DNA of 64,000 nt from Thermococcus guaymasensis DSM 11113 (GTDB taxonomy: Archaea > Methanobacteriota_B > Thermococci > Thermococcales > Thermococcaceae), in the NCBI RefSeq assembly GCF_000816105.1, contig NZ_CP007140.1, forward strand, positions 1,390,388 through 1,454,387. The letters run 5' to 3'. Shown one piece after another: positions 8,438 through 55,604 of the stretch. The first letter of the stretch is position 1, and the number at the start of each line of letters is the position of its first letter. Below the pieces are notes generated by a model, which was not told the origin of the DNA, searched no databases, and saw only the letters and a program-made list of their open reading frames with translations. The position numbers were made by a program, and so were the translations under genes.

Positions 8438-9808
8438 CTAAGCCCCAAGAACTTCCTCCAGAAGCCTGAGGCCCAGCTCAAGGTACTCCTTCGCCTTCTC
8501 CTCGCTCTTGGCCTCGCTGAAAATCCTAATTATCGGCTCGGTTCCGCTCGCCCTCACGAGAACCCAGCCGTCCTCAAAGATTATCTTAGTCCCATCGGTA
8601 GTGTCAACGTTGTAACCTTGGGCCTTGGCGAGCTCGGCAACCTTTGCCACAATCGCCTTCCTGTCGCCTTCCACCTTCCTCTTCGTCTTGAACTGGTAGT
8701 ACTTCGGGAGCTCGTCTATCAGCTCGCTGAACTTCTTTCCACTCTTGGCAAAAATCTCGACTATCTTCGCGGTGGTCATCGCCCCGTCCCTGCCGAGGAC
8801 GAAGTCCGGGAAGATAACGCCACCGTTCTCCTCGCCACCGATGGTTCCGTTGTGCTCAAGCAAAGCCCTCGCAACTATGAGGTCTCCAACCTTCGTGCGC
8901 ATGACCCTCGCGTTGTTCCTCTTGGCTATGTCATCGAGAAGGTTGGAAGTTGCTATAGTCGTGACGAGGAGCCCACCGCCGTTCTCCCTCAGAACTGCAT
9001 CGGCAACCAGAGCGAAGGTCTTGTCGCCCTGGATAAAGCGCCCGTTCTCGTCTATGAACACTGCCCTGTCCGCGTCACCGTCCTGAGCGACGCCGAAGTC
9101 CGCACCGAGGGCCTTGACTATCTCCTTGAACTCCTTCAGGTTCTCCTCGTTCGGCTCGGGGTTTCTGGCCGGGAAGTGACCGTCGGGGTGGGCGTTCACG
9201 CTGATGACCTTGCACCCGAGCTCCCTGAGCAGGTAGGGTAAGGTGAGAGAGCCCGCACCGTTTGAGGTGTCAACGACAACGAAGGGCCTTCTCTTCTTTA
9301 TTGCCTCCACATCGACCCTGCTCTTTATCGCCTCTATGTACGGCTTGATTATGTCCTCATTCCTAACCTCGCCGATTTCGTACCACTTGGCCCTCTCAAA
9401 GTCCTCGTTGAAGAAGACCTCCTCAACAACCGCCTCTCTCTCCTTCTTGAGGCCCATTCCGTTCGGTTCGAGGAGCTTTATACCGTTGTATTCGGGCGGG
9501 TTGTGGGAAGCGGTTATAACGGCACCGCCGTCGGCCTTGAAGTGGTTGGTCGCCCACTGTATGGCCGGAGTGGGGGCTATTCCAACGTCTATGACGTCAC
9601 AGCCGACGCTGAGGAGCCCGCTGATTAGAGCGTCCTTCAGCATCTCACCGCTTACCCTCGTGTCCCTGCCGACAACGACAAGCGGCCTCTCCCTTCCTTC
9701 CCTCTTCAGCATCGTCCCGAAGGCCATGCCCATCTTAAGGGCGAACTCCGGGGTTATCTTTTCGTTCGCTATCCCCCTGACGCCAAAGGTTCCAAAGAGC
9801 CTCCCCAT
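8438..9808 (-). CDS. Phosphomannomutase/phosphoglucomutase
   Basis: A 456-residue alpha-D-phosphohexomutase. The catalytic phosphoserine loop is TASHNPPEYNG (about residue 96), the metal loop is DGDADRAV (about 245), the sugar-binding loop is GGEENGGV, and the phosphate-binding loop near the end is RASGTEPIIRI. It converts hexose 1- and 6-phosphates. Gene order with manC and ADP-glucokinase matches what I recall of T. kodakarensis TK1108-TK1110, where TK1108 has both activities. The ATG at 9808 follows GAGGTGGTAAT. A TGM lies directly upstream. Confidence 0.92.
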   Translation of the reverse strand: MGRLFGTFGVRGIANEKITPEFALKMGMAFGTMLKREGRERPLVVVGRDTRVSGEMLKDALISGLLSVGCDVIDVGIAPTPAIQWATNHFKADGGAVITASHNPPEYNGIKLLEPNGMGLKKEREAVVEEVFFNEDFERAKWYEIGEVRNEDIIKPYIEAIKSRVDVEAIKKRRPFVVVDTSNGAGSLTLPYLLRELGCKVISVNAHPDGHFPARNPEPNEENLKEFKEIVKALGADFGVAQDGDADRAVFIDENGRFIQGDKTFALVADAVLRENGGGLLVTTIATSNLLDDIAKRNNARVMRTKVGDLIVARALLEHNGTIGGEENGGVIFPDFVLGRDGAMTTAKIVEIFAKSGKKFSELIDELPKYYQFKTKRKVEGDRKAIVAKVAELAKAQGYNVDTTDGTKIIFEDGWVLVRASGTEPIIRIFSEAKSEEKAKEYLELGLRLLEEVLGA

Positions 9809-9819
9809 ATTACCACCTC

Positions 9820-9836
9820 TATCACTCCCGGTGATA
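9820..9836. promoter_or_regulatory. Thermococcales glycolytic motif upstream of the phosphohexomutase
   Basis: TATCAC, five bases, GTGATA: a perfect match to the TGM bound by the sugar-responsive regulator TrmBL1/Tgr. On the minus strand it lies downstream of a candidate box A (GTTTTAAC, complement of 9843-9850) and just before the ribosome binding site. In this family an operator placed after box A normally represses when sugar is absent, as in glycolytic genes. Confidence 0.85.
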
Positions 9837-9851
9837 TACAACGTTAAAACT

Positions 9852-11249
9852 TTATCCCCTGCCGAAGTCGTCCTCAAAGCGGACTATGTCGTCCTCGCCG
9901 AGGTATTCACCAATCTGGGTCTCTATGACCTCCAAAACCACCTTTCCAGGGTTCTCAAGGCGGTGCTTAACGCCGGCCGGAATGAAGGTGCTCTCTCCCG
10001 GCCTGAGGAGTAGCTCCTTGTCCCCGACGGTCACCTTCGCCGTGCCCCTGACGACGACCCAGTGCTCACTCCTGTGGTAGTGCATCTGAAGGGAGAGCTT
10101 CTTGCCCGGCAGGACGGTGAGGCGCTTTATCTTGTAGCGCTCACCCTCCTCAAGGACGGTGTAGCTCCCCCATGGGCGATAAGCAGTCCTGTGGACGATA
10201 ACGCGCTCATCCCCAAGCTCTTTCAGGACTTTGTAAGCCTCTTTGACCTTCTGGCTCTCGCCCTTCTTGGCCACGAGGAGTGCATCACCGGTGTCCACGA
10301 TGATGAGGTCTTCAACGCCGACCGTTGCCGTTAGCCTCTCGGTCATGATGAGGTTGTTCTTGGAGTTGACGCCAACGTGGTAACCCTTCTTCCCGCGAAC
10401 CCTGACCGCGTTTCCGTTGGAGTCCTTCTCAAGGACTTCGTAGATGGCGTCGAAGCTGCCGAGGTCACTCCACTTCGTGTTGAGCGGCACCACAGCGGCC
10501 TTGTCCGTCTTCTCCATGACGCCGTAGTCTATGCTTATCTCCGGGACGCGGGCGTAAACTTCATCAATGTCGCCGCTCTCCTCAAAGGCCTCCCAGACAT
10601 CGGGGGCGTGCTTTCTGACCTCCTCGATGAAGAGCGAGCTCGAGAAGGCGAACATGCCGCTGTTCCAGTAGTAGCCGTTCTCGACGTACCTCTTGGCGGT
10701 CTCGAGGTCTGGCTTCTCCTTGAACTCGGCAACGGTATAGCCTATTATTCTCCCGTCCCCCTCGATTTTTTCGCCCGGCTTTATGTAACCGTAGCCAGTG
10801 TGGGGCCTGGTCGGCTTGATTCCAAAAGTGACTAGGTAATCTTTGGCAAGCCTCTTGGCGTTCTTAAATGCCCTCTCGTAGGCCTCGTTGACCTCTATAA
10901 GGTGGTCGCTTGGAAGCACTGTGACGGCGGAGTTCCCGAACTCCTCTTCAATCCTGAGTGTAGACCACAGTATCGCGGGCAGGGTGTTCTTACCGCTCGG
11001 TTCAAGCAGGATGTTGTCTTCGGGGATTTCGACACCGAGCTCCCTCAGGTCGTCCAAGACGCGGAAGCGGTAGTCCCTGTTGGTAACTATGAATATCTCC
11101 CCGGGCTTTGAGAACATCAGGGCCCTCTCAACGGTCTTCTGGAACAGGCTCATATCGTCGAGGAAGCGGACGAACTGCTTCGGCATCAGCTCCCTGCTCA
11201 GGGGCCACAGACGGGTTCCCTTTCCACCAGCTAGGATTATGGTCTTCAC
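9852..11249 (-). CDS. Mannose-1-phosphate guanylyltransferase / mannose-6-phosphate isomerase
   Basis: A 465-residue bifunctional enzyme. The N-terminal nucleotidyltransferase has ILAGGKGTRLWPLSRE and later FKEKPD and YWNSGMFAF. The C-terminal cupin (about 350-460) has RPWGSYTVLEEG, QMHYHRSEHWVVV and GEYLGEDDIVR. It makes GDP-mannose for glycans and lipids, and feeds on mannose-1-P from the neighbouring mutase. The GTG at 11249 is preferred because GGGGTGGTCACT precedes it. Confidence 0.93.
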   Translation of the reverse strand: MKTIILAGGKGTRLWPLSRELMPKQFVRFLDDMSLFQKTVERALMFSKPGEIFIVTNRDYRFRVLDDLRELGVEIPEDNILLEPSGKNTLPAILWSTLRIEEEFGNSAVTVLPSDHLIEVNEAYERAFKNAKRLAKDYLVTFGIKPTRPHTGYGYIKPGEKIEGDGRIIGYTVAEFKEKPDLETAKRYVENGYYWNSGMFAFSSSLFIEEVRKHAPDVWEAFEESGDIDEVYARVPEISIDYGVMEKTDKAAVVPLNTKWSDLGSFDAIYEVLEKDSNGNAVRVRGKKGYHVGVNSKNNLIMTERLTATVGVEDLIIVDTGDALLVAKKGESQKVKEAYKVLKELGDERVIVHRTAYRPWGSYTVLEEGERYKIKRLTVLPGKKLSLQMHYHRSEHWVVVRGTAKVTVGDKELLLRPGESTFIPAGVKHRLENPGKVVLEVIETQIGEYLGEDDIVRFEDDFGRG

Positions 11250-11342
11250 AGTGACCACCCCTGTCTCTGCAGGGTACTGGGATGTCATCACTTTTAACTT
11301 TGGCGTAGAAATTGGGAATGAAACAGAAATGAAATTGAGAAT

Positions 11343-12704
<1,362 letters not shown>

Positions 12705-12707
12705 TTA

Positions 12708-12724
12708 TATCACCGGGAGTGATG
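12708..12724. promoter_or_regulatory. Thermococcales glycolytic motif upstream of ADP-glucokinase
   Basis: TATCAC, CGGGA, GTGATG on the plus strand: one base from the TGM consensus and with the same spacer sequence as the TGM at 9820-9836 read on the other strand. It overlaps the ribosome binding region of the glucokinase gene, so TrmBL1-type repression without sugar is expected. Confidence 0.8.
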
Positions 12725-12914
12725 TAAAAGCCGAAGTCTAATAAGGGTTGCGGTTTAAAGCTTCAAATGGACATTGTACTCATAATTAAGCTGTTCGGGC
12801 CTGTCTCCCTTTTGGAATACAGCAGGTTCTTGCCTCGCACCTGTAAACCTCAAGCTGGACTGTGATGTGTGTCACCACCAAATTTCTTCTGCCTTCATTA
12901 ATTTCGCCAATAAC

Positions 12915-13049
12915 CCTCTATACCTCGCAGAGGTTTCCTCGTACATGGTGGTCCTTCTTGCCCTTTCCTGGGCGGTTGAGAACTTCAGGAGGGGTTATAG
13001 AAAGCGGGAGCGGGTCAGAGCATCGGCTCCTCATCACACCTCAGAGTGA
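12915..13049 (+). pseudogene. Duplicated 3' end of the gene at 44238-44747
   Basis: The reading frame here encodes VSSYMVVLLALSWAVENFRR and then RKRERVRASAPHHTSE, nearly the same as the last 39 residues of the protein at 44238-44747. Nothing upstream resembles the rest of that protein, so this is a fragment. At DNA level a 35-base block plus flanks is shared, and that block is exactly the C/D guide RNA described next. The frame is probably kept by the RNA, not by protein function. The other parts of 12725-13118 show no gene. Confidence 0.7.
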
Positions 13050-13071
13050 GGGAAATCGCTCATCATTTCTC
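13010..13071 (-). ncRNA. Box C/D guide sRNA, copy 1
   Basis: Read on the minus strand: C box ATGATGA (13066-13060), 15 bases, D' box CTGA (13044-13041), 4 bases, C' box TGATGA (13036-13031), 12 bases, D box CTGA (13018-13015). The D' guide carries TTTCCCTCAC, complementary to GUGAGGGAAA of the universal 23S motif GUACCGUGAGGGAAAGG; the fifth base rule points at the A of GUGA. The D guide is GGAGCCGATGCT. The terminal stem is weaker than in copy 2 at 44216. Confidence 0.75.
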
Positions 13072-13118
13072 CCCAAGTTTGGAGTATCCTTTTAAATGAA
13101 TTCGCTAGAGGGGGAGTG

Positions 13119-14183
13119 ATGTTAGTAGAAATCGTGCTTGCAGTGATACTCCTGTGGGACGTTTCTTTCTTCCTCAGGTATCTGGTCAGTTTTCAAAAAA
13201 AGTATCTCACCACGGATTGGAAACCTAAGGTCAGCATCATTATCCCTGCCTACAACGAGGCCGAGAACATCGAAGAAGCTATCAGGGCGGCTCTTTCTCA
13301 AGATTATCCGAGCATTGAGGTAATCGTTGTGGACGATGGAAGCGAGGATGGGACGTACGAAAGGGCTCTCTCGCTCAAGGATCCAAGGCTTAGAGTCGTC
13401 CAGATTGATCACGGGGGAAAGACTAAGGCGTTAAACAGAGGGCTTGAGATCTCCGCTGGAGAAATTATCGTCACGACCGATGCCGATGGGGTTCTTGAGA
13501 GAAACGCCGTTTCACGGCTTGTGGAGCGCTTTTACTCTGATGATATTGTCGCAGTCGGCGGCCAGGTGCGGGTTAGGGGAAGAAGGTTCCTTGAGCTGGC
13601 CCAGGACATCGAGCACCTGAGGATAGCAACCTTTCGGAGGGCAAAGGAGCTTGAGAACCTCAGCCTCGCACCCGGCCCTGTCTCTGCGTTCAGGAAGAAT
13701 GCCCTACTGAGGATAGGGGGTTTCGTTGAAGACCTGGTCGAGGACTACGCAACCACACTTGCCCTCAAAAGGCTCGGCAGTGTTGTTTATGCTCCCCACG
13801 CCAAAGTCTGGGTTAAGATGCCCTCCGAGCTGAGGGCCCTATGGCGGCAGAGAAGGAGATGGTTCCTGGGAGACCTTCCAAAGCTCGCAGCGAAGCCTCT
13901 GGGAGAAAAACTGTTTTTCGTTCTAAGCGACACAGTGGCTCTCTTTGATGTTTTCTTCCCCTTAGCCGCGCTCTTAACTGGAAAGTGGTTTTTGTTGTTA
14001 GTCTTTCTGGCGCTTGAATGGGCTATGATGTCCATAATCGTCAGAGTGGAGGGAGGCTCTCTTCTCGAAGTCCTGCTGTTTCCGATCCTCCTTTGGTTCT
14101 GGGCGGCTTTCTATTTAGCACTTCATATTTACGGTTTAGTTCACTATGCTTTTGGAAGAGAAACCTCAATTGAATGGAATTGA
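13119..14183 (+). CDS. Membrane glycosyltransferase, family 2
   Basis: A 354-residue processive-type GT2 enzyme. It has an N-terminal helix (residues 2-24), the nucleotide-sugar domain with [36 protein letters not shown] (the DxD-type metal site), LVEDYATTL (acid/base ED) and [10 protein letters not shown] (QxxRW). At least three membrane helices close the protein. It probably polymerises or transfers sugars at the membrane for cell-surface glycans. The ATG follows GAGGGGGAGTG, and a box A TTTTAAATG lies at 13090-13098. Confidence 0.88.
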
Positions 14184-17242: not shown

Positions 17243-17311
17243 TGTGCCCCCGGGGAGCGAAGGGGAATCACAGCTCGCCGAGGCGCTCATCCCCCGCGGT
17301 TTCCCGGGGGC
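17243..17311 (-). ncRNA. H/ACA guide sRNA, single hairpin
   Basis: On the minus strand a nine-pair lower stem (GCCCCCGGG with CCCGGGGGC) encloses a pocket with left arm AAACCGC and right arm TTCGCTC. Above it, GGGGGA pairs with TTCCCC, and TGA opposite TGTGA forms a kink-turn of the kind bound by L7Ae. ACA follows the lower stem at once (17245-17243), 16 bases from the base of the upper stem, as the family rule requires. It would direct Cbf5-Nop10-Gar1 to pseudouridylate a target. A TTTAAG box A lies about 25 bases upstream. Confidence 0.75.
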
Positions 17312-20760: not shown

Positions 20761-21327
20761 ATGGTCAAGCGCGGTCTATTCGTCGGTCGTTTCCAGCCCG
20801 TCCACAACGGGCACCTAAAGGCGCTAGAATTCGTCTTTTCGCAGGTTGATGAGGTCATCATAGGGATTGGAAGCGCCCAGGCAAGCCACACGCTCAAGAA
20901 CCCCTTCACGACGAGCGAGAGAATGGAGATGCTCATAAGGGCCCTTGATGAAGCGGAGTTCCCCAAGAAGCGCTACTATTTGATTCCCCTCCCGGACATA
21001 AACTTCAACGCCATCTGGGCGACCTACGTGGTGAGCATGGTTCCGCGCTTCGACGTCGTCTTTACCGGGAACTCTTTGGTTGCCCAGCTCTTCCGTGAGA
21101 AGGGCTACGAGGTCATCGTCCAGCCGATGTTCAGGAAGGACATACTCTCGGCGACAGAGGTAAGGAGGAGGATGGTCAGCGGGGAGCCGTGGGAAGACCT
21201 CGTTCCGAAGAGCGTCGCCGAGTTCATAAAGGAAATCCACGGCGTTGAAAGGATTCAGATGCTCGCGACCAACCTTGAGAAGAACGAGAAAGAGTTGCAG
21301 GCGCCGATAAGGATTCCGGAGTTTTAG
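20761..21327 (+). CDS. nadM: Nicotinamide-nucleotide adenylyltransferase
   Basis: A 188-residue archaeal NMN adenylyltransferase that makes NAD from NMN and ATP. GLFVGRFQPVHNGHLKALEF carries the nucleotidyltransferase (H/T)xGH-type site, and ILSATEVRRRMVSGEPW the second (ISSTxxR-like) site. NPFTTSERMEM is also typical. The start at 20761 follows GGGGTGGTTGTT. It follows the VapBC genes closely. Confidence 0.93.
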   Translation: MVKRGLFVGRFQPVHNGHLKALEFVFSQVDEVIIGIGSAQASHTLKNPFTTSERMEMLIRALDEAEFPKKRYYLIPLPDINFNAIWATYVVSMVPRFDVVFTGNSLVAQLFREKGYEVIVQPMFRKDILSATEVRRRMVSGEPWEDLVPKSVAEFIKEIHGVERIQMLATNLEKNEKELQAPIRIPEF

Positions 21328-24928: not shown

Positions 24929-25186
24929 GGTTTGTTTTTATCAAAGGTTTTTGAAGTGTAGTCTGCTGGTGTTATTGTTTCTTAGAGCTCTTTTTTTATA
25001 GCTCTTCTTACGTATTGACCTATATGCTACTTCTACTGCTTGATATTGCATATATTTGTTTTAAATCTAAAGCATTTTGTTACGTTATAAACGTGTTATA
25101 TATTTATATTACTAGCTTGATGTTTTAAACTACTCGTTTACAAAAAATTTAAATATTATAATCCATAATAATAATTGGTGACTCCC
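24929..25186 (+). promoter_or_regulatory. AT-rich intergenic region and promoter of the peptide island
   Basis: No supportable gene lies in these 258 bases. Base composition drops sharply to AT-rich right after the exporter stop. A box A (AAATTTAAATATTATA, 25145-25160) lies about 30 bases before the Cys-rich peptide. An inverted repeat AGAGCT...AGCTCT flanks a T7 tract near 24983-25006 and may end transcription of the exporter operon. Confidence 0.5.
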
Positions 25187-25288
25187 ATGGGATGGCTATG
25201 TTACGCAGGTTGCGCGGCAGGATGTATGACCGGATGTGGAGCAGTATGTTCTGTAAGCGGAGCAACTTGCTTGGGCCTTTGCCGTTAA
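25187..25288 (+). CDS. Cys-rich 33-residue peptide, probable RiPP precursor
   Basis: Too short for routine gene calling. The ATG at 25187 is preceded by GGTGA five bases upstream and by a box A. The peptide starts MGWLCYAGCAAGC and has cysteines at 5, 9, 13, 17, 21, 28 and 32, a CX3C ladder broken once, with Gly and Ala between. This resembles thuricin CD peptides (CX3CX3C at 5, 9, 13), whose cysteines form thioether bridges to alpha carbons. No leader is evident; a GTG at 25178 would add only three residues. A radical SAM gene, a PqqD-like gene and an exporter follow. Function is inferred. Confidence 0.75.
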   Translation: MGWLCYAGCAAGCMTGCGAVCSVSGATCLGLCR

Positions 25289-25319
25289 AAGAGAAAACAT
25301 TAGTAGGAGGTGAAAGCGC

Positions 25320-25583
25320 ATGAGCTACGTGCCTCCTGTTGGTGGTGATATCGGGGTTGCCGTAGATACCGTGGCAATAAACCAAGCATATGTTTTAAAT
25401 GTGGGTGTATTAATGAATGCAGGCGCATACTTGGATGTGGTAGCTGGTCAATATCTTGCAGTTGCATTAGTGATAGTGGCTTATGCTGGGGTCTTTGTTG
25501 CAACTGTTGCTGCAAAATGGATTCTACGGAGCAATATGGATGTAATACAAAATGAAAAACTTAGTAACTCTAACATGAACTAA
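25320..25583 (+). CDS. 87-residue hydrophobic protein of the peptide island
   Basis: Not recognised. A strong AGGAGGTGA lies six bases before the ATG. The protein is rich in Val, Ala, Tyr and Asn, has no Cys, and holds a likely membrane helix (about residues 46-69, LAVALVIVAYAGVFVATVAA). The N-terminal PPVGGDIGVAVDTVAINQAY stretch is Gly/Val-rich. It could be a second precursor, an immunity protein or a partner that presents the Cys-rich peptide to the enzyme. It is 31 bases after the peptide gene. Confidence 0.65.
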   Translation: MSYVPPVGGDIGVAVDTVAINQAYVLNVGVLMNAGAYLDVVAGQYLAVALVIVAYAGVFVATVAAKWILRSNMDVIQNEKLSNSNMN

Positions 25584-25609
25584 ATATATGGCTTGGTAGG
25601 TGATGAAAA

Positions 25610-26793
25610 ATGAAAATTAGTGATGAGCTTAAAGAGTTCTATGTTTCATTTTACTCAATACTTGATAAATTCGCCCAAAGTCCTCACACAAGAGTGCCTA
25701 TGAGAGCAACTCAATTAAAAGAGTTCTCGGAGTTATTTAGTGAGCTTCGAGAGTTATATCGCAAATACCACATGTGGGCAGAGAACCTAAAAGGTCCTGT
25801 TTCTGTTTCAATCGATGTCACGTATAGATGTAATTACAATTGCCCCTATTGCTACGTTGGATGTTCTTCCAATTTAAATAGGCATGAACTCACTACTAAT
25901 GAAATAATAAATATCATTGACGAACTTGCGGAATTAGATGTGTTAGTTTTGTGTTTATGTGGGGGGAACCAACTCTCCGCAAAGATCTTCTTAAACTTGT
26001 AGACTACGCCAATGAAAAAGGAATTACCGTCAATATGGTAACCAATGGATCTTTGATATCAGACAACTTTGCTTCAAAATTAGCGGAATCAGGTATTGGT
26101 GTCGTTCAGGTCTCCCTAGATGGATCTAAACCTGAGATAATGGAAAAACTAAGACCCAAAGGTTCATATAATAGAGCTATTAATGCAATAAAGAATCTGA
26201 CCGAATATGATATTCCAACAGTTGTAAGTTTCTGTTCAACTAAATTAAACATAGATGACTTCCCAAACACCGTTGAGCTATGCGAAAAACTTGGGATTTT
26301 GTCTGTCCGCACAATGTATTTTGTGCCTGAGACTCCTAGCCATCTAAACTTGGCCCCGACTAATCGTCAATATAAAAACTTGGTATCGTGGATAAATAGC
26401 CATTGGCATGAGTATTCTGTTAGAATAGAATTTGGAGATCCAACTGAACATATAGCAATTGGCCCATATATGTCACTTGTATCATTAAGTATTAGTGCGG
26501 AGGGCTATATCCTTCCTACGCCCTACTTAAGCTTGGCATATGGTCATGTCTCAGATGGAATAAAACATCTATGGCACAATGGATTAGAATATATATGGAG
26601 AGACAATCCTGTTCTTTTGGCAATATCTTCTTACATGAAGACTGAACATGATTTCCTAAAATTGATGTCCTTATTTATGACTAGGATACACTCGAATGGT
26701 TATGTAGATCTGCTACGACTAAATGTGAAGGAAACCATGGATTTAGCAAAAAAGGTTAAGGGGGTGTTAGTGAATGACAACTCCTCTCAATAA
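25610..26793 (+). pseudogene. Radical SAM peptide-modifying enzyme, frameshifted
   Basis: Two frames together make a protein of about 394 residues. The first (25610-25960) holds the 4Fe-4S motif CNYNCPYC near residue 77; the second (from about 25961) continues GEPTLRKDLLKLVDYANEKG, VTNGS and VSLDGSKPE. They meet at a run of six G (25961-25966); seven would restore CGGEPTLRK. The C-terminal part has a Gly-rich segment and HLW, like twitch/SPASM regions, but no cysteines for auxiliary clusters. It would install thioether or similar bonds in the nearby peptide. Real mutation, slippage or sequence error are all possible. Confidence 0.8.
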
Positions 26794-27211
26794 TGCCGGC
26801 ATCTTAAATGATTATTTAACCAATATATTGGATCATGTCGAGGCTGAGGAATATTCGCTTGCTATTCTTGAGGACATTAATTTTAGATTTGAAAGTGATG
26901 GTAGGATTACCACATTCAACCCCCTCACATGGAAAATAACAATTTTGAACCCTACAATGGGTGAAATCGTTAGGATAATTAAAACAAACAGATATGCAAA
27001 ATTCTCGGAGATTCTCAAAATCCTGCATTATAAGTATCCAGATATACCAATAGATGTCCTAAAAAATGACATAAAAAACGCAATTCTATGGCTCTTTGTA
27101 AATGAATTTATTTATATTGTTTCCAATAACAAAGAAAAACTTCACTTTATCTCATTACTGAAAAAAGCCAATGACTTTGACATCAACGACAATAACTCGG
27201 AGGAGGGATAA
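26774..27211 (+). CDS. PqqD-like peptide chaperone (RRE domain)
   Basis: A 145-residue protein overlapping the radical SAM gene by 20 bases. The central part, roughly 45-120, has the PqqD/RRE layout: two or three strands (FNPLTWKITILNPTMGEIV) followed by three helices with YPDIPIDVLKNDIKNAILWL and a final strand. RRE domains bind precursor peptides and hand them to radical SAM partners. Assignment is by fold pattern and context, not by strong sequence identity. Confidence 0.6.
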   Translation: MTTPLNNAGILNDYLTNILDHVEAEEYSLAILEDINFRFESDGRITTFNPLTWKITILNPTMGEIVRIIKTNRYAKFSEILKILHYKYPDIPIDVLKNDIKNAILWLFVNEFIYIVSNNKEKLHFISLLKKANDFDINDNNSEEG

Positions 27212-27213
27212 TT

Positions 27214-27657
27214 TTGGCGGATGGCTCTTTTATCCCTCTCTTAATAGTGTTTGCGCCAATTTTCGGGACAGTGTCATTCGTGGTAGTGATGATAAAGAGA
27301 TGGTTGGACAGCTATGTCCCGTTAAAAGTCATCGTGAGACACAGGAAGGGTAGAACGGAATTGATCATACAGACAAAAAGGAAAACAGAGTATATCAATG
27401 TCTTTGAATTCATCCCTGCGGAATGTTGGGAAGTATTAAGAAGAAGAATCCGTGGGCTTGAATTTGGTAGATATAAATTGGGTCGCTATAAAGGCGCACA
27501 TGGGGAAGTGTATTCGTACGCTATTTCGTGTTCTGGAATATTAATAAAGGATTCAAATGGGACAAAATATTATCTGGCCTTTAACAACATCCAAGAGGTT
27601 ATAGATGCCCTATTGGATGATAATATACAAGAAAAGGTTATAGAGGTGAGAAGATGA
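27214..27657 (+). CDS. Membrane-anchored protein with PH-like domain, unknown function
   Basis: A 147-residue protein starting at a TTG preceded by GGAGGGATAATT. It has one N-terminal membrane helix (about 6-27) and a soluble domain of alternating strands ending in a helix (YAISCSGILIKDS, YLAFNNIQEVIDALLDD), reminiscent of bacterial PH-like domains. It lies between the PqqD-like gene and the exporter permease and could be an immunity or assembly factor. No motif identifies a reaction. Confidence 0.6.
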   Translation: MADGSFIPLLIVFAPIFGTVSFVVVMIKRWLDSYVPLKVIVRHRKGRTELIIQTKRKTEYINVFEFIPAECWEVLRRRIRGLEFGRYKLGRYKGAHGEVYSYAISCSGILIKDSNGTKYYLAFNNIQEVIDALLDDNIQEKVIEVRR

Positions 27658-28457
27658 GCCTCAAACCCGTTATAATAAAAGAGCTCTGGCAGTATCGCTC
27701 AAACAAAAATCTAATTGTACTCTCAACGAACGCCTTGTTTATAATTGCCATTGGACTACTATTGATTTTAAGTGGCCCTCAGTATCTAACTCCATATTCA
27801 AAGCAGGTTGCCATGAGGCAGATATCAGAAAATCCGTCGATTTTTGGGCTATCCATAGAAGATGTGGCAAAAATGGGTGATCAAGCCATAGTCTTTGCCT
27901 CCTTAGTTTCCCAGTTACCACTTGTAATAATAGTAACGTCGACTTTGAGTTCCTACATGTCAATTGTAACGTCTCTATTCTATGAGAGATTATATAAAAC
28001 AATGGAAGTCCTTCTTTCTTCCCCCCTGTCCGAGTCTGAAATCCTCCTTGGAAAGTTGCTTTCCAGTTTGCTCTTTAGTTTGTTCTCGTGGAGTGCTAAT
28101 TTCTTGGCGATTCTCGCCCTTTTGCAGTACCTGCATTTAGAGAGCCTAGGTAGAATGTGGGCTCCAACAGAATATTTTCTGGTTCTCACGATGTTTGTCC
28201 CATTTTCAATGATAATGGTATCCACAAGCATTGGCCTCGTGGCCAGTGCAAAAATAAGAAACCCTGAATTCGTAAATCTAATAGGTATTCCCTTAGTTCT
28301 GGTTCCGACGATAATTTCATTTATTTCTTACCGAATGAAACTGGAAAGCTCCATGCAGGTTTATCTAATCCTAGGTATCACTTCTATAATACTGTCTACC
28401 ATACTATCAATGTTTGGCAAGAGAATTCTCAATCGCCTTGCGTTTATAGCCAATTGA
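27654..28457 (+). CDS. ABC-2 type exporter permease of the peptide island
   Basis: A 267-residue membrane protein with about six helices and the ABC-2 layout: a cytoplasmic start (VIIKELWQYRSNKN), a long first loop after helix 1, then YERLYKTMEVLLSSPLSESEILLGKLL before the helix cluster, a typical coupling region. The ATG overlaps the preceding stop. The ATPase follows ten bases downstream. It most likely exports the modified peptide or protects the producer. Confidence 0.82.
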   Translation: MSLKPVIIKELWQYRSNKNLIVLSTNALFIIAIGLLLILSGPQYLTPYSKQVAMRQISENPSIFGLSIEDVAKMGDQAIVFASLVSQLPLVIIVTSTLSSYMSIVTSLFYERLYKTMEVLLSSPLSESEILLGKLLSSLLFSLFSWSANFLAILALLQYLHLESLGRMWAPTEYFLVLTMFVPFSMIMVSTSIGLVASAKIRNPEFVNLIGIPLVLVPTIISFISYRMKLESSMQVYLILGITSIILSTILSMFGKRILNRLAFIAN

Positions 28458-28467
28458 GGTGAGGTTT

Positions 28468-29377
28468 ATGCTTGAGGTGGAAAATATTAGTGCTGGCTAT
28501 GGTAACGGCGATGTGATAAAAAATCTAAGCTTTATCGCAATAGGAAGGGAGATTTATGTACTATTGGGAGCGAATGGGGCAGGCAAAACAACAACGTTTA
28601 GAGCAATCACTGGCATTTTGCCCCTTTCTAGGGGTAGAGTGGTAGTTGATGGAATTGATCTTTGGGTGGAACCTGAAAAAGCTAAAAGAAAGATCGGGTA
28701 TCTGCCAGAGGGAGAGCGAGTTTATCCAGATTTAACTGTCTACAAGAATCTGCGATTTTTTTGCCAGAATTTATGATGTTGAAGAAGAGCGAATTAATGA
28801 ACTTCTAAGAGAATTTGGACTTGAAAGGTATCGAGATACAAAAGCTGGATATCTAAGCAGAGGATTTAGAAAGAGACTCGCTTTGGCGAGAGCATTACTT
28901 CATAATCCAAACATTTTAGTTTTAGACGAGCCCTTCAGTAACTTGGACATTCCCACAGTTTTGAGCTTAAGGGATAAAATCTTTGAAATGCTGGAAGAAG
29001 GCAAGACAATTTTATTCTCAACACACATTCTAAGTGAACTCCAGAACTTTGAAGGGATAAGATGCAGGGTTGGAATAATGAAAGAGGGAAAACTCATTTT
29101 GGAGGAAAGACTGGAGAACCTACTCAACAGAATCAGCAACATTGAAGTACTGTTTAAAGTCGACAAAAAACAACAGGCAAGAGAACTATTAAAGAAGTTT
29201 GGGTATCCTGTTAAGATGGAAAGCACTGGAGTTGCTGTAAGGGTTTCTAACTATAACGAGGAAACCCCTGCAATAATGAAAATACTCCTAACACAAGGTA
29301 TCAATGTGTATGAGGTAAAACCAAAAGAAACACCAATAGAAAAAATATTCACCGAAATAACAAAGAGAAGTGAGTAG
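28468..29377 (+). pseudogene. ABC exporter ATPase of the peptide island, frameshifted
   Basis: The start (28468, after GAGGTGAGG) has Walker A LGANGAGKTTT and continues to YPDLTVYKNL, where the frame stops soon after a run of seven T (28756-28762). Removing one T joins it to FFARIYDVEEERINELL, the signature region LSRGFRKRLALARALL, Walker B ILVLDEPFSNLD and H-loop STHILSEL, ending at 29377. The intact protein would be about 302 residues. Signature SRGFRKR departs from LSGGQ as in many ABC-2 ATPases. Confidence 0.82.
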
Positions 29378-29458
29378 ACCAAAATGAGAGGGTGCTTCGG
29401 CAGAATATAATTATAGAATGACCCATGCGGAGATTGTTCCCTAAAAGGAGCGTGCACT

Positions 29459-29548
29459 ATGTGCCGTTCGGTAGTTGAATCCATTAATATCCCTCCAGAT
29501 TCATGTCCCATATGGGAAAAAGCTCTAGAGGTGGAAAAATGGGATTAA
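29459..29548 (+). CDS. Possible 29-residue leader ORF before the second ABC transporter
   Basis: ATG preceded by AAAAGGAG and a box A (AATATAATTAT, 29404-29414). The short product starts MCRSVVESINIPPDSCPIWE and has two cysteines. Its stop overlaps the next start by ten bases, so it could couple translation, or be a chance frame. No homology is recognised. Confidence 0.3.
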   Translation: MCRSVVESINIPPDSCPIWEKALEVEKWD

Positions 29549-30206
29549 CATGGACTCAACTTCCTGAGGAGATTAAATACACAGCGAAGCAATTCGGGTT
29601 CTACATCATAGGGATTCCCTCTGTGGTAGCGGTTGTTTACATGTTCGCGAGCTGGACCCCCTTCCGAGCGATGCAATCGTCGGAACGTCGAGCTTCTCCA
29701 TTGCCGTCCTGATTTCCCTTTTCCTAGGTGGTTCGGTTGTCAAAGAGAAGCTCCTTGGAATCCACGAGGTGCTCCTCAGCCTTCCATTCGACCCGGTTAA
29801 GTTTATCTCCATGAGAACCCTCGCGAGCTTCATTATTGGAATCGCGGGAATTGCAGTTGGAAGTGTCGCGGGATGGTTCATAGCCCTCCACGTGGGCACT
29901 CCAATATCATTAACAACGGTGCCCATCGGGATTCTAATCTCAGTCCCGGCGCTCTTCAGCTTCACGTTCCTCATAATCCTGATAACACTCCTCTTTCAGT
30001 CAAAGTACCTCGACGTGGCAAAGCTCATAATTTTCTTCACGGCATACTTTGGGCCCGCGTGCATTCCCAAATACTTTGGAGTTGGCCTCTCATTGGAGAT
30101 TGCACTTGTGTTATCGCTCCTGATGTCCATGGGCGCACTTGCAGTCTCCTACTTGATTATTCACTCCCTCGGAGAAAGACTCGCCGAGAGAATGGTGCTG
30201 GTGTGA
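29539..30206 (+). pseudogene. ABC-2 type permease, frameshifted
   Basis: GC content returns to the genomic norm here. The first frame encodes LTWTQLPEEIKYTAKQFGFY and a first helix, then leaves frame near 29651-29661; one missing base there would join it to DPLPSDAIVGTSSFSIAVL and the rest of a six-helix permease of about 222 residues ending at 30206. The ATPase at 30216 is intact. Either the gene is recently broken or the sequence lost a base. Confidence 0.75.
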
Positions 30207-30215
30207 GGTGGTTCC

Positions 30216-31103
30216 ATGATAGTCCTTGAGAACGTCCGGAAGACCATAAAAGGAACGGAAGTCCTCCGCGGGATAAGCTTGACCGTAAAGCCTGGCGAAA
30301 TCCACGCCTACCTCGGCCACAATGGGGCCGGCAAGACAACGACCTTCCGGCTGGTTCTCGGCCTCCTCGTTCCGGACTCGGGCAGGGTTGAGGTTCTCGG
30401 CGTCAATCCGCTCAAGAGTCCTGAGGTAAGGGCTAAAATTGGCTATCTCCCAGAATATGACCTCCTCTACCCTAACCTCTCAGTGCGAGACAACCTCAGG
30501 CGCTACGCCCTGCTGAAGGGGGTTTATGACGAGAGGGAGCTGCGGGAGCTTCTTGAGTTCTTCGAGCTTGAAGAATACGCCAAAAAGAAGGTTTCGGCTT
30601 TATCAAGCGGGACGCAGAGAAGGGTGGTGATGGCGAGGGCGTTCCTCGGAAGCCCCGAGGTTCTAATCCTCGACGAGCCCACGAGGGGCCTCGATCCCGA
30701 GTGGAGGCTGAGGTTCAAGCGGTTTCTGGGGGAGTATGCGAGGAAGAACGATGCCTCCATCGTTTTCTCGACTCACATCCTCAGCGACGTCGATGAGGTC
30801 TGCAACACTGTCACCGTAATCCGCGAGGGCCGGGTTCTCTTCTCGGGGAGCTTGGAGGAATTCCGGAGGAGCGCGCCGGCGGAAGAGGCCGTCCTCGTGA
30901 AGGTGGCCGATGTTGAGAGGGCCATCGCGGTTCTCCGGGAGAAGGGCTATTCCCCGGAGGTCGTGAGGGGTTACATAGCCCTGAAGAACGCCGAGCCGTC
31001 GGAGGTGAACGCGCTCCTTGTGAAAGCCGGCCTGAGGGTTGAGGAGATTAAAAGGGCGGAGCCGAGCCTTGAGGAGGTCTACGCAATGCTTTATGAGGAG
31101 TGA
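30216..31103 (+). CDS. ABC transporter ATP-binding protein
   Basis: A 295-residue ATPase with Walker A LGHNGAGKTTT, Q-loop region YLPEYDLLYP, signature LSSGTQRR, Walker B VLILDEPTRGLDP and H-loop STHILSDVDE. The C-terminal 80 residues are the regulatory tail typical of ABC-2 ATPases. It forms a unit with the permease just upstream (9-base gap, GAGGTGGTTCC ribosome binding site). Its Walker segments resemble those of the island ATPase, but codon use and GC differ. Confidence 0.9.
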   Translation: MIVLENVRKTIKGTEVLRGISLTVKPGEIHAYLGHNGAGKTTTFRLVLGLLVPDSGRVEVLGVNPLKSPEVRAKIGYLPEYDLLYPNLSVRDNLRRYALLKGVYDERELRELLEFFELEEYAKKKVSALSSGTQRRVVMARAFLGSPEVLILDEPTRGLDPEWRLRFKRFLGEYARKNDASIVFSTHILSDVDEVCNTVTVIREGRVLFSGSLEEFRRSAPAEEAVLVKVADVERAIAVLREKGYSPEVVRGYIALKNAEPSEVNALLVKAGLRVEEIKRAEPSLEEVYAMLYEE

Positions 31104-31842: not shown

Positions 31843-33024
31843 TTACTTCATCCTTTTCTGATAAATATCTTTTCTTGCCATCACCCAGAACATCGCCCCA
31901 GCTATCAAAAACAGCACCAGACTCGCATCATAGGGCAACGTCGCGTGGATGCTTGCCAAAGCTCCGGCTATGGCTGGCGTAAATAATCCGAGAAGCTTCC
32001 GGTAGCTCGATATCGCCGCGTGGAACTCGCTGGCCTTCTCCTTGGGGATTAACTTGAACATCCAGGAGCGGTAGAAGGGGAACCAGAGCGTGCTCCCGAA
32101 GTCACCGAGAGCATAAACAGCCAGCGCCAGCCAAAACGGTGGTGAGAGCGCCATGACCAGAGCATAGAAGGCGTTGATGAACATGCCGAGGCCGATGACC
32201 TGGAATCCCTTCCCCTTCGGAACCCTCTCGCTGGCGTACGTGCCGATTATCGATGCCAAACTGCTCGCGCAGGCTATCAGCGTTACCTCAAAGACGGTCT
32301 TGTGGAGCACGAATACCACGTAGTTGATGAGCACCAGCTCCGGTGCGAGCTCCCAGGCGAGCGTGAGCAACGCTTCAAATGCAAGGAGGAGCTTGAACTC
32401 ACCTGCCTTGAATGTGAAGCCCTCCGGTGTTATTCTCTCCTCCCTGCCAATAGAGGGTAGAAACTTCCAGATGTAGGCCACTGTAACAGTCGAGAAGAGG
32501 CCAAAGAACATGAACGTCCAGCGGTAGCTCTCCGGTCCGGGATAGACGTAGCCGAGGATGTAGCCCATAATCGGGAAGGTTACCAGCCTCGCTATCTCCG
32601 GCAGACGGAGGTGCCAGGCGAAGATTTCCTCGTATTTGTCCTCTGGGTAGATTATCTGCTCGTAGGCGCGGTAGAGGGGGTAGAGAACCGTTGAGAGCTT
32701 CTCGATTGTCCTCCCAGCGAAGAGCATGAGCGGTGCTATGGCTCCCTTCGCGAGGCCGTACAAAACGTAGGCGACGCCATCCAGGACATCTATCGCGATG
32801 AGGCCCTTCTTGATGTCCCAGCGGTTGAAGAGCCTGCCGAAAAAGTAGGTTAGGGGAATCGAGGCTACGTTGACGGCAGTGAAGAACGCTCCGACTTCGA
32901 GAATCGAGTAGCCGGTCTCCATGAGATAGAGCGGGAAGAGTGTCCAGACTATCAGGCCGGGTGCTATTAGCGTGTGGTAGAGCATGTAGGCCTTAGCTTC
33001 CCTCGGAATCTCGCTCCAGCGCAT
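31843..33024 (-). CDS. MFS transporter
   Basis: A 393-residue membrane protein with about twelve helices and the two-half layout of the major facilitator superfamily. LFNRWDIKKGLI after helix 2 fits the basic loop between helices 2 and 3. Substrate cannot be read from the sequence. The ATG at 33024 follows GGGGTTCAC. It stands alone. Confidence 0.82.
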   Translation of the reverse strand: MRWSEIPREAKAYMLYHTLIAPGLIVWTLFPLYLMETGYSILEVGAFFTAVNVASIPLTYFFGRLFNRWDIKKGLIAIDVLDGVAYVLYGLAKGAIAPLMLFAGRTIEKLSTVLYPLYRAYEQIIYPEDKYEEIFAWHLRLPEIARLVTFPIMGYILGYVYPGPESYRWTFMFFGLFSTVTVAYIWKFLPSIGREERITPEGFTFKAGEFKLLLAFEALLTLAWELAPELVLINYVVFVLHKTVFEVTLIACASSLASIIGTYASERVPKGKGFQVIGLGMFINAFYALVMALSPPFWLALAVYALGDFGSTLWFPFYRSWMFKLIPKEKASEFHAAISSYRKLLGLFTPAIAGALASIHATLPYDASLVLFLIAGAMFWVMARKDIYQKRMK

Positions 33025-41437: not shown

Positions 41438-41562
41438 CATCAGGTATTGGATCATCTGACCTCCTCCCTGCTGTGAACGGCGAGGCTTTCAAAAGAAAAA
41501 TGTAAGGCAGCGAAAAAGTTAATAAAAAGGAATCTCAAAAATTCAGGGATGGAGGGAATAAA

Positions 41563-44215: not shown

Positions 44216-44277
44216 CGGGGATGATGAGCAGTTTCCCTCACTCTGAAGCGTGATGAGGAGCCGATGCTCTGACCCGC
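44216..44277 (+). ncRNA. Box C/D guide sRNA, copy 2
   Basis: C box ATGATGA (44221-44227), 15 bases, D' CTGA (44243-44246), 4 bases, C' TGATGA (44251-44256), 12 bases, D CTGA (44269-44272), with outer CGGG/CCCG pairing. Spacing 15/4/12 is the same as copy 1 (13010-13071) and the RNA at 55542. The D' guide TTTCCCTCAC pairs with GUGAGGGAAA of 23S rRNA; the D guide is GGAGCCGATGCT. The RNA runs antisense across the last codons of the gene at 44238-44747. Confidence 0.85.
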
Positions 44278-55541: not shown

Positions 55542-55604
55542 ACGGCTCAGTCAGTATACCCCTCATCACATTTCAGCTACCGTGAGGCTCCTCATCGCCA
55601 CCTT
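55542..55604 (-). ncRNA. Box C/D guide sRNA with D' guide to the same 23S motif
   Basis: Minus strand: C box GCGATGA (55598-55592, one base off consensus), 15 bases, D' CTGA (55576-55573), 4 bases, C' TGATGA (55568-55563), 12 bases, D CTGA (55550-55547). The D' guide contains CCTCACGGTA, complementary to UACCGUGAGG of the 23S motif GUACCGUGAGGGAAAGG; the fifth-base rule points to the second C of UACC. Spacing 15/4/12 equals that of the RNAs at 13010 and 44216. Confidence 0.75.

Follow-up and report, generated by a model that had tools for sequence, protein, structure and literature searches.

Sactisynthases and related radical S-adenosylmethionine (SAM) enzymes carry SPASM/twitch clusters, while the epimerases of the proteusins, a group of ribosomally synthesized and post-translationally modified peptides (RiPPs), lack these clusters and possess a RiPP recognition element (RRE) and a conserved catalytic Cys (PMC8326336). 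The motif bound by lasso RREs is YxxP (PMC12710340), which is essential for binding in the LPP RREs (PMC13381572). Here, we analyzed a radical SAM locus in a 64,000-nucleotide stretch of Thermococcus guaymasensis DSM 11113 (contig NZ_CP007140.1; the whole stretch is referred to as the window), with homologue searches covering 94 Thermococcales genomes (handles beginning with G designate genomes, and those beginning with L designate loci). The initial annotation had proposed, from gene content, a 4.2-kb AT-rich sactipeptide-like island in which a 33-residue seven-Cys peptide would be modified by the radical SAM enzyme encoded nearby. Our analysis indicated that the locus is quite likely a mosaic of two RiPP clusters, alpha and beta, with beta being an uncharacterized two-precursor RiPP system.

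Nucleotide comparison (blastn) assigned 25109–25267 and 29410–31103 to alpha and 25271–29384 to beta, placing the joints to within a few bases. On the left, the alpha Cys-rich peptide gene is represented by its promoter/leader region and initial 27 codons (25109–25267, + strand), which are 73–74% identical to the alpha loci L043 and L044, with the matches stopping at 25266–25267, and the joint occupies 25268–25270. On the right, the joint (29385–29409) leads into the last ~45 codons of the alpha gene for a 412-aa radical-SAM-like protein (CGDCSLKGACTMCRS...SCPIWEKALE; 29410–29548, +), which are 80% identical at the nucleotide level to L046 and 68% identical, over a longer stretch, to L043. This remnant is followed by the alpha ABC-2 (ATP-binding cassette) permease (29539–30206, +), which has lost one base from a C-run near 29658 and whose G018 orthologue, located at this same site, is intact, and by the alpha exporter ATPase (30216–31103, +; 82% and 73% identical to the alpha ATPases of G022 and G037, respectively). 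The 4.2-kb gene set described previously is present, but the true unit spans 25109–31103, since the downstream permease and ATPase (29539–31103) belong to alpha. About 2.66 kb of alpha, that is, its two enzyme genes, is replaced by beta. As to the direction and mechanism of the swap, we infer that a 4.1-kb beta cassette would have entered an alpha Cys-peptide cluster already resident at the site, displacing its two enzyme genes; the aligned joint sequences contain no long homology. The GC content is 37–40% across 25–29 kb compared with mostly 50–59% around it, and the horizontal transfer suspected from this AT-richness is supported.

Inspection of the left joint revealed that the 33-aa open reading frame (ORF; 25187–25288, +) exists but is not one native peptide gene, being a truncated alpha/beta chimaera. 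Its first 27 codons (25187–25267) encode the start of the alpha peptide, with five Cys; the alpha relatives are about 50 aa long, with five Cys in G037. Beyond the joint, the ORF consists of the 3′-end DNA of beta precursor 1 (from 25271) read out of frame. The joint codon supplies Cys 6, and Cys 7 lies inside the out-of-frame beta DNA; because the ORF runs out of frame into the beta gene tail, both of these Cys owe their existence to the joint. In its own frame, this DNA is the 3′ tail of the precursor 1 gene, whose start is lost (25271–25323, +; 87–89% nucleotide identity to L035 and L038), and it encodes PLPLKEKTLVGGESA before the stop codon in the window and SLPLKDKTSGGENA in G055 (L035). 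A match of the 33-mer to halocin C8 (E = 0.14) was rejected, as it is under the cut-off and its query is a chimaera.

When used as a query, the 33-aa peptide matched strongly in G037 and G070 (75% identity) and more weakly in G001 and G022. Alpha is intact in G037, G022, and G070, the last assigned only from the similarity of the cluster ends and their spacing. The alpha order in G037 and G022 is Cys peptide, 511-aa radical SAM/SPASM enzyme, 412-aa radical-SAM-like protein, permease, and ATPase. The best NCBIfam match of the 511-aa enzyme is CcpM (TIGR04068; E = 3.6e-69 over 350 residues), with a score of 234 bits that is below the family cut-off of 500 bits. Among the genomes searched, the alpha peptide and the beta enzyme occur together only in the window's own: the peptide is absent from the other beta genomes, and the enzyme is absent from the intact-alpha genomes. 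These data bear directly on the sactipeptide or ranthipeptide interpretation, in which the neighbouring radical SAM enzyme would modify the 33-aa Cys-ladder peptide before its export through the ABC-2 pair. The genes do adjoin on one strand, and the sactisynthase SkfB is the closest solved-structure relative of the beta enzyme by sequence (E = 2e-27). However, the peptide is a truncated chimaera that belongs to the other cluster, and its family goes with a CcpM-like maturase that has been lost from the window by replacement. Furthermore, the beta enzyme lacks SPASM/twitch Cys, its counterpart of the SkfB PCQ position is PTP (Cys replaced by Thr), and the likely substrates, encoded by conserved neighbouring genes, are Cys-free, making this interpretation highly improbable. 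Proximity-based genome mining would mismatch precursor and enzyme here, a misleading adjacency that is now corrected. In G001, a deletion has left the region of the alpha peptide fused to the final part of the gene for the 412-aa protein. In L040 (G016, reverse-complement 11399–14170), genes for a 550-aa radical SAM protein and for a membrane protein of 371 aa are inserted between an alpha permease remnant and the ATPase.

Strong matches to the beta enzyme were found in 9 of the 94 Thermococcales (the window's own, G055, G080, G077, G093, G018, G067, partial G016, G081). Six genomes besides the window's own (G055, G080, G077, G093, G018, and G067) share the beta gene order of precursor 1, precursor 2, radical SAM enzyme, RRE, TM/PH-like protein (with a transmembrane [TM] helix and a pleckstrin homology [PH]-like domain), permease, and ATPase, indicating a compact family of RiPP clusters in Thermococcales, of which intact copies exist outside the window's own genome. 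The G080 and G077 copies are almost identical to each other. The order seen in the window thus recurs elsewhere from the 87-aa gene through the ATPase but never with the Cys peptide. In the window, the hydrophobic 87-aa ORF (25320–25583, +; MSYVPPVGGDIG...) is confirmed as precursor 2, a Cys-free and likely RiPP precursor that has its N-terminus in common with the other beta loci and is under purifying selection. The PqqD-like protein (26774–27211, +) and the membrane protein (27214–27657, +) are likewise confirmed, and the ABC-2 permease (27654–28457, +; PF12679/PF12698) is 60–70% identical to those in L035 and L036. The radical SAM gene with CNYNCPYC and CxCGGEP (25610–26793, +; PF04055 in both halves) and the exporter ATPase gene (28468–29377, +; PF00005; 80–95% identity to relatives in two frames) are present but not intact, being split by frameshifts at a G6 run (25961) and a T7 run (28756), respectively. 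With a precursor, an RRE, a radical SAM enzyme, and an exporter, the RiPP logic proposed for the island is supported.

Outside Thermococcales, no full-length beta enzyme was found among 396 relatives sampled up to domain level, and none was found in IMG/VR. The plasmid search yielded only one 30% identical Collinsella radical SAM protein, and a scan of GTDB contigs gave one close relative, whose match equals that of G055. G246 contains a partial relative of the enzyme with a PqqD-like gene and no YxPP precursor. This distant relative (L079, 7976–12107), whose SPASM-like segment (TADGHVGFTPYF) is likewise devoid of the Cys normally present there, adjoins, in addition to the PqqD-like gene, two TldD/PmbA-type peptidase-like genes, with ABC-2 genes upstream. 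Radical SAM RiPPs in Thermococcales are not described in the literature covered, which was mainly open-access, and beta is apparently an undescribed RiPP system. We read it, from its gene sequences, as an uncharacterized two-precursor RiPP class.

Comparison of the beta precursors revealed that both start with M..Y-x-P-P-x-G and then diverge into hydrophobic, Cys-free sequence. Y-x-P-P-x-G is invariant across 10 sequences from six genomes, the pattern of a conserved leader and a variable core. The ratios of nonsynonymous to synonymous substitution rates (dN/dS) of the two precursors are 0.11 and 0.21 (G055 versus G080), indicating purifying selection. The window retains precursor 2 but just the tail of precursor 1. 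Precursor 2 is hydrophobic, 53–87 aa long, and resembles a membrane segment, so the YxPPxG proteins might instead be small membrane partners (immunity proteins or transporter accessories), with the real substrate elsewhere. We consider this unlikely: each cluster has two paralogues that have only the short N-terminal motif in common and vary in their C-termini, as is typical of leader and core, and no further conserved small ORF was seen in the beta loci.

The chemistry of the beta enzyme was approached through an alignment of five intact copies (41–84% identical to the first). The intact L035 copy matches PF04055 with E = 4.7e-29 and has the CxxxCxxC and GGE motifs. Only five Cys are invariant, those of CxxxCxxC and of a CxC (C132/C134) directly before GGEP, and no SPASM/twitch auxiliary-cluster Cys is present in the alignment. 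The first Cys of the CxC also occurs in the distant G246 homologue. Because the Cys of the enzyme are limited to those of the SAM cluster and the CxC, and because the substrates are Cys-free, we infer that the enzyme may rewrite hydrophobic residues rather than form thioethers. Epimerization, via C-alpha H-abstraction with a Cys as H donor, is our best single guess and a tentative one, made by analogy because proteusin epimerases likewise lack SPASM/twitch clusters and have an RRE and a conserved Cys. A C–C, C–O, or other crosslink, or a decarboxylation of the PqqE/MftC type, is a rather doubtful alternative to epimerization. MftC, PqqE, AhbD, and WgkB are among the best NCBIfam matches, and Tyr, Trp, and Asn are present in the precursors, but these enzymes use SPASM/auxiliary clusters, which are absent in beta, and the cores, in contrast to the leader, have no invariant residue. 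A viperin match from PADLOC was rejected as generic radical SAM similarity.

The AlphaFold2 model of the PqqD-like protein (pLDDT 85.8) has an RRE fold, and its best Foldseek match in the PDB is the leader-bound lasso RRE TbiB1 (5v1v/5v1u; TM-score 0.80 to the target, E = 1.1e-3). Weaker matches include the RRE-bearing NisB, TigE, and TruD, with some unrelated proteins interspersed, and the L041 homologue matches PF05402 (E = 3.7e-4). In the proposed pathway, the YxPPxG leader would be bound by this discrete RRE, which would hand the peptide over to the radical SAM enzyme for modification. The product, probably a membrane-active antagonistic peptide, would then leave the cell through the ABC-2 pair. 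The protein encoded at 27214–27657 combines a TM helix with a beta-rich PH-like domain; its L035 homologue matches PF10882 (bPH_5) with E = 3.9e-4, just below the cut-off, and its AlphaFold2 model has no fold match in the PDB. It is a candidate self-immunity or accessory protein, and a role in immunity is speculation. The beta ATPase (28468–29377) is 95% identical at the amino acid level in its N-terminal part to those of L035 and L038, with a dS of 0.56, whereas that of the permease is about 2.9, and in G093 the ATPase identity is 84–87% versus 35%. Since the ATPase is far more alike between clusters than the remaining genes, this suggests that it was exchanged separately from the rest of the cluster.

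Several observations count against this reading of beta. The Foldseek E-values are borderline, the best being 1.1e-3, and the PqqD profile matches to the window protein are weak. YxPPxG fits Y..P, but carries Gly at +5, where lasso leaders carry a hydrophobic residue. No cleavage-site signature was seen in the precursors, the beta cassette has no peptidase gene, and the longer precursors could be small membrane proteins instead. The donor Cys of known epimerases sits elsewhere, and an H-donor role for the CxC is a guess. On a broader scale, beta might represent a new archaeal RiPP class in hyperthermophiles: archaeocins made of two hydrophobic peptides that lack Cys and have a YxPPxG leader, whose maturation would rely on a discrete RRE and a radical SAM epimerase devoid of auxiliary clusters, with radical SAM modules exchanged at one chromosomal site beside a shared exporter; we put forward this wider proposal as a possibility that we do not expect to hold as a whole.

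The window copy of beta may itself be inactive, because precursor 1 is lost and both the enzyme and the exporter ATPase are frameshifted. Together with the deletion in the alpha permease, the frameshifts amount to three single-base homopolymer indels in 4.7 kb. Relatives read through the sites in the radical SAM and ATPase genes. An almost evenly balanced alternative, to which we give slightly less than an even chance, is that the frameshifts stem from errors in the assembly and that the beta cluster of the window is functional, with a single precursor. Each of the three indels falls in a homopolymer, and dN/dS is low in the window genes, with no long relaxation. However, no frameshift was found in 25 conserved neighbouring genes (26.6 kb), and this clustering (P about 0.003 by length and about 0.03 by homopolymer count, runs ≥ 5) favours decay. 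The copies in G016 and G018 are damaged too, and the indels have no bearing on the loss of precursor 1. At the G018 beta locus (L039, 8361–8600), the only visible precursor contains a frameshift, and this copy may be decaying as well.

Comparison of the same chromosomal position in relatives showed what else it can hold. In G022, alpha lies between the genes that flank the window island (a 188-aa gene at 20761–21324 and a major facilitator superfamily [MFS] gene at 31843–33024). In G018, which is about 90% identical to the window along the shared downstream flank, a different (third) radical SAM gene stands beside the same exporter type, with the permease intact. Only about 50 bp separate the flanks in G031 and G019, which are without an island, and the genes that flank alpha in G037 enclose a decayed remnant of beta in G016. 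The site is a turnover hotspot for these clusters, at which radical SAM peptide modules are swapped with the exporter retained. The third cluster of G018 (L072, G018:C1:2077000-2096000, reverse-complement 9255–13415) encodes a 45-aa ORF (MEPEVNESTYVVGVLEKVAKVGACGHYN...), a 488-aa radical SAM protein, an MFS protein, two permeases, and an ATPase. An Rfam search of the island gave no match; elsewhere in the window, the H/ACA RNA Pab160 (17243–17311, −) and the C/D-box RNAs snoPyro_CD and sR51 (44217–44275, +; 55545–55599, −) were matched. A ~50-bp sequence at 41456–41506 has many copies (90–96%) in related Thermococcus genomes and is neither a tRNA nor an Rfam family.

Among known systems, CcpM systems (TIGR04068) resemble alpha in that the matching enzyme adjoins a Cys-rich peptide, whereas alpha has a second radical-SAM-like protein, and its enzymes are absent from the window. 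SkfB aligns with the beta enzyme into its C-terminal region; beta differs from the sactisynthases in lacking SPASM/twitch Cys and Cys in its substrates. Lasso systems share with beta a discrete RRE fold and a YxxP-type leader, but the lasso cyclase (C) and B2 peptidase are not among the genes of the conserved beta unit, and the +5 residue is Gly in beta. Compared with the proteusin/epipeptide systems (PoyD, EpeE-YydFGHIJ), beta has a discrete RRE, a YxPPxG leader, and two precursors, and its epimerization is a prediction only. Like beta, these systems combine hydrophobic Val/Ile/Ala-rich peptides with one radical SAM enzyme and an ABC transporter, and the proteusin epimerases, which lack auxiliary clusters, use an RRE, and have a catalytic Cys (PMC8326336), are likened to the beta enzyme by the first two features, with the CxC as a candidate counterpart of the catalytic Cys, rather than by sequence membership.

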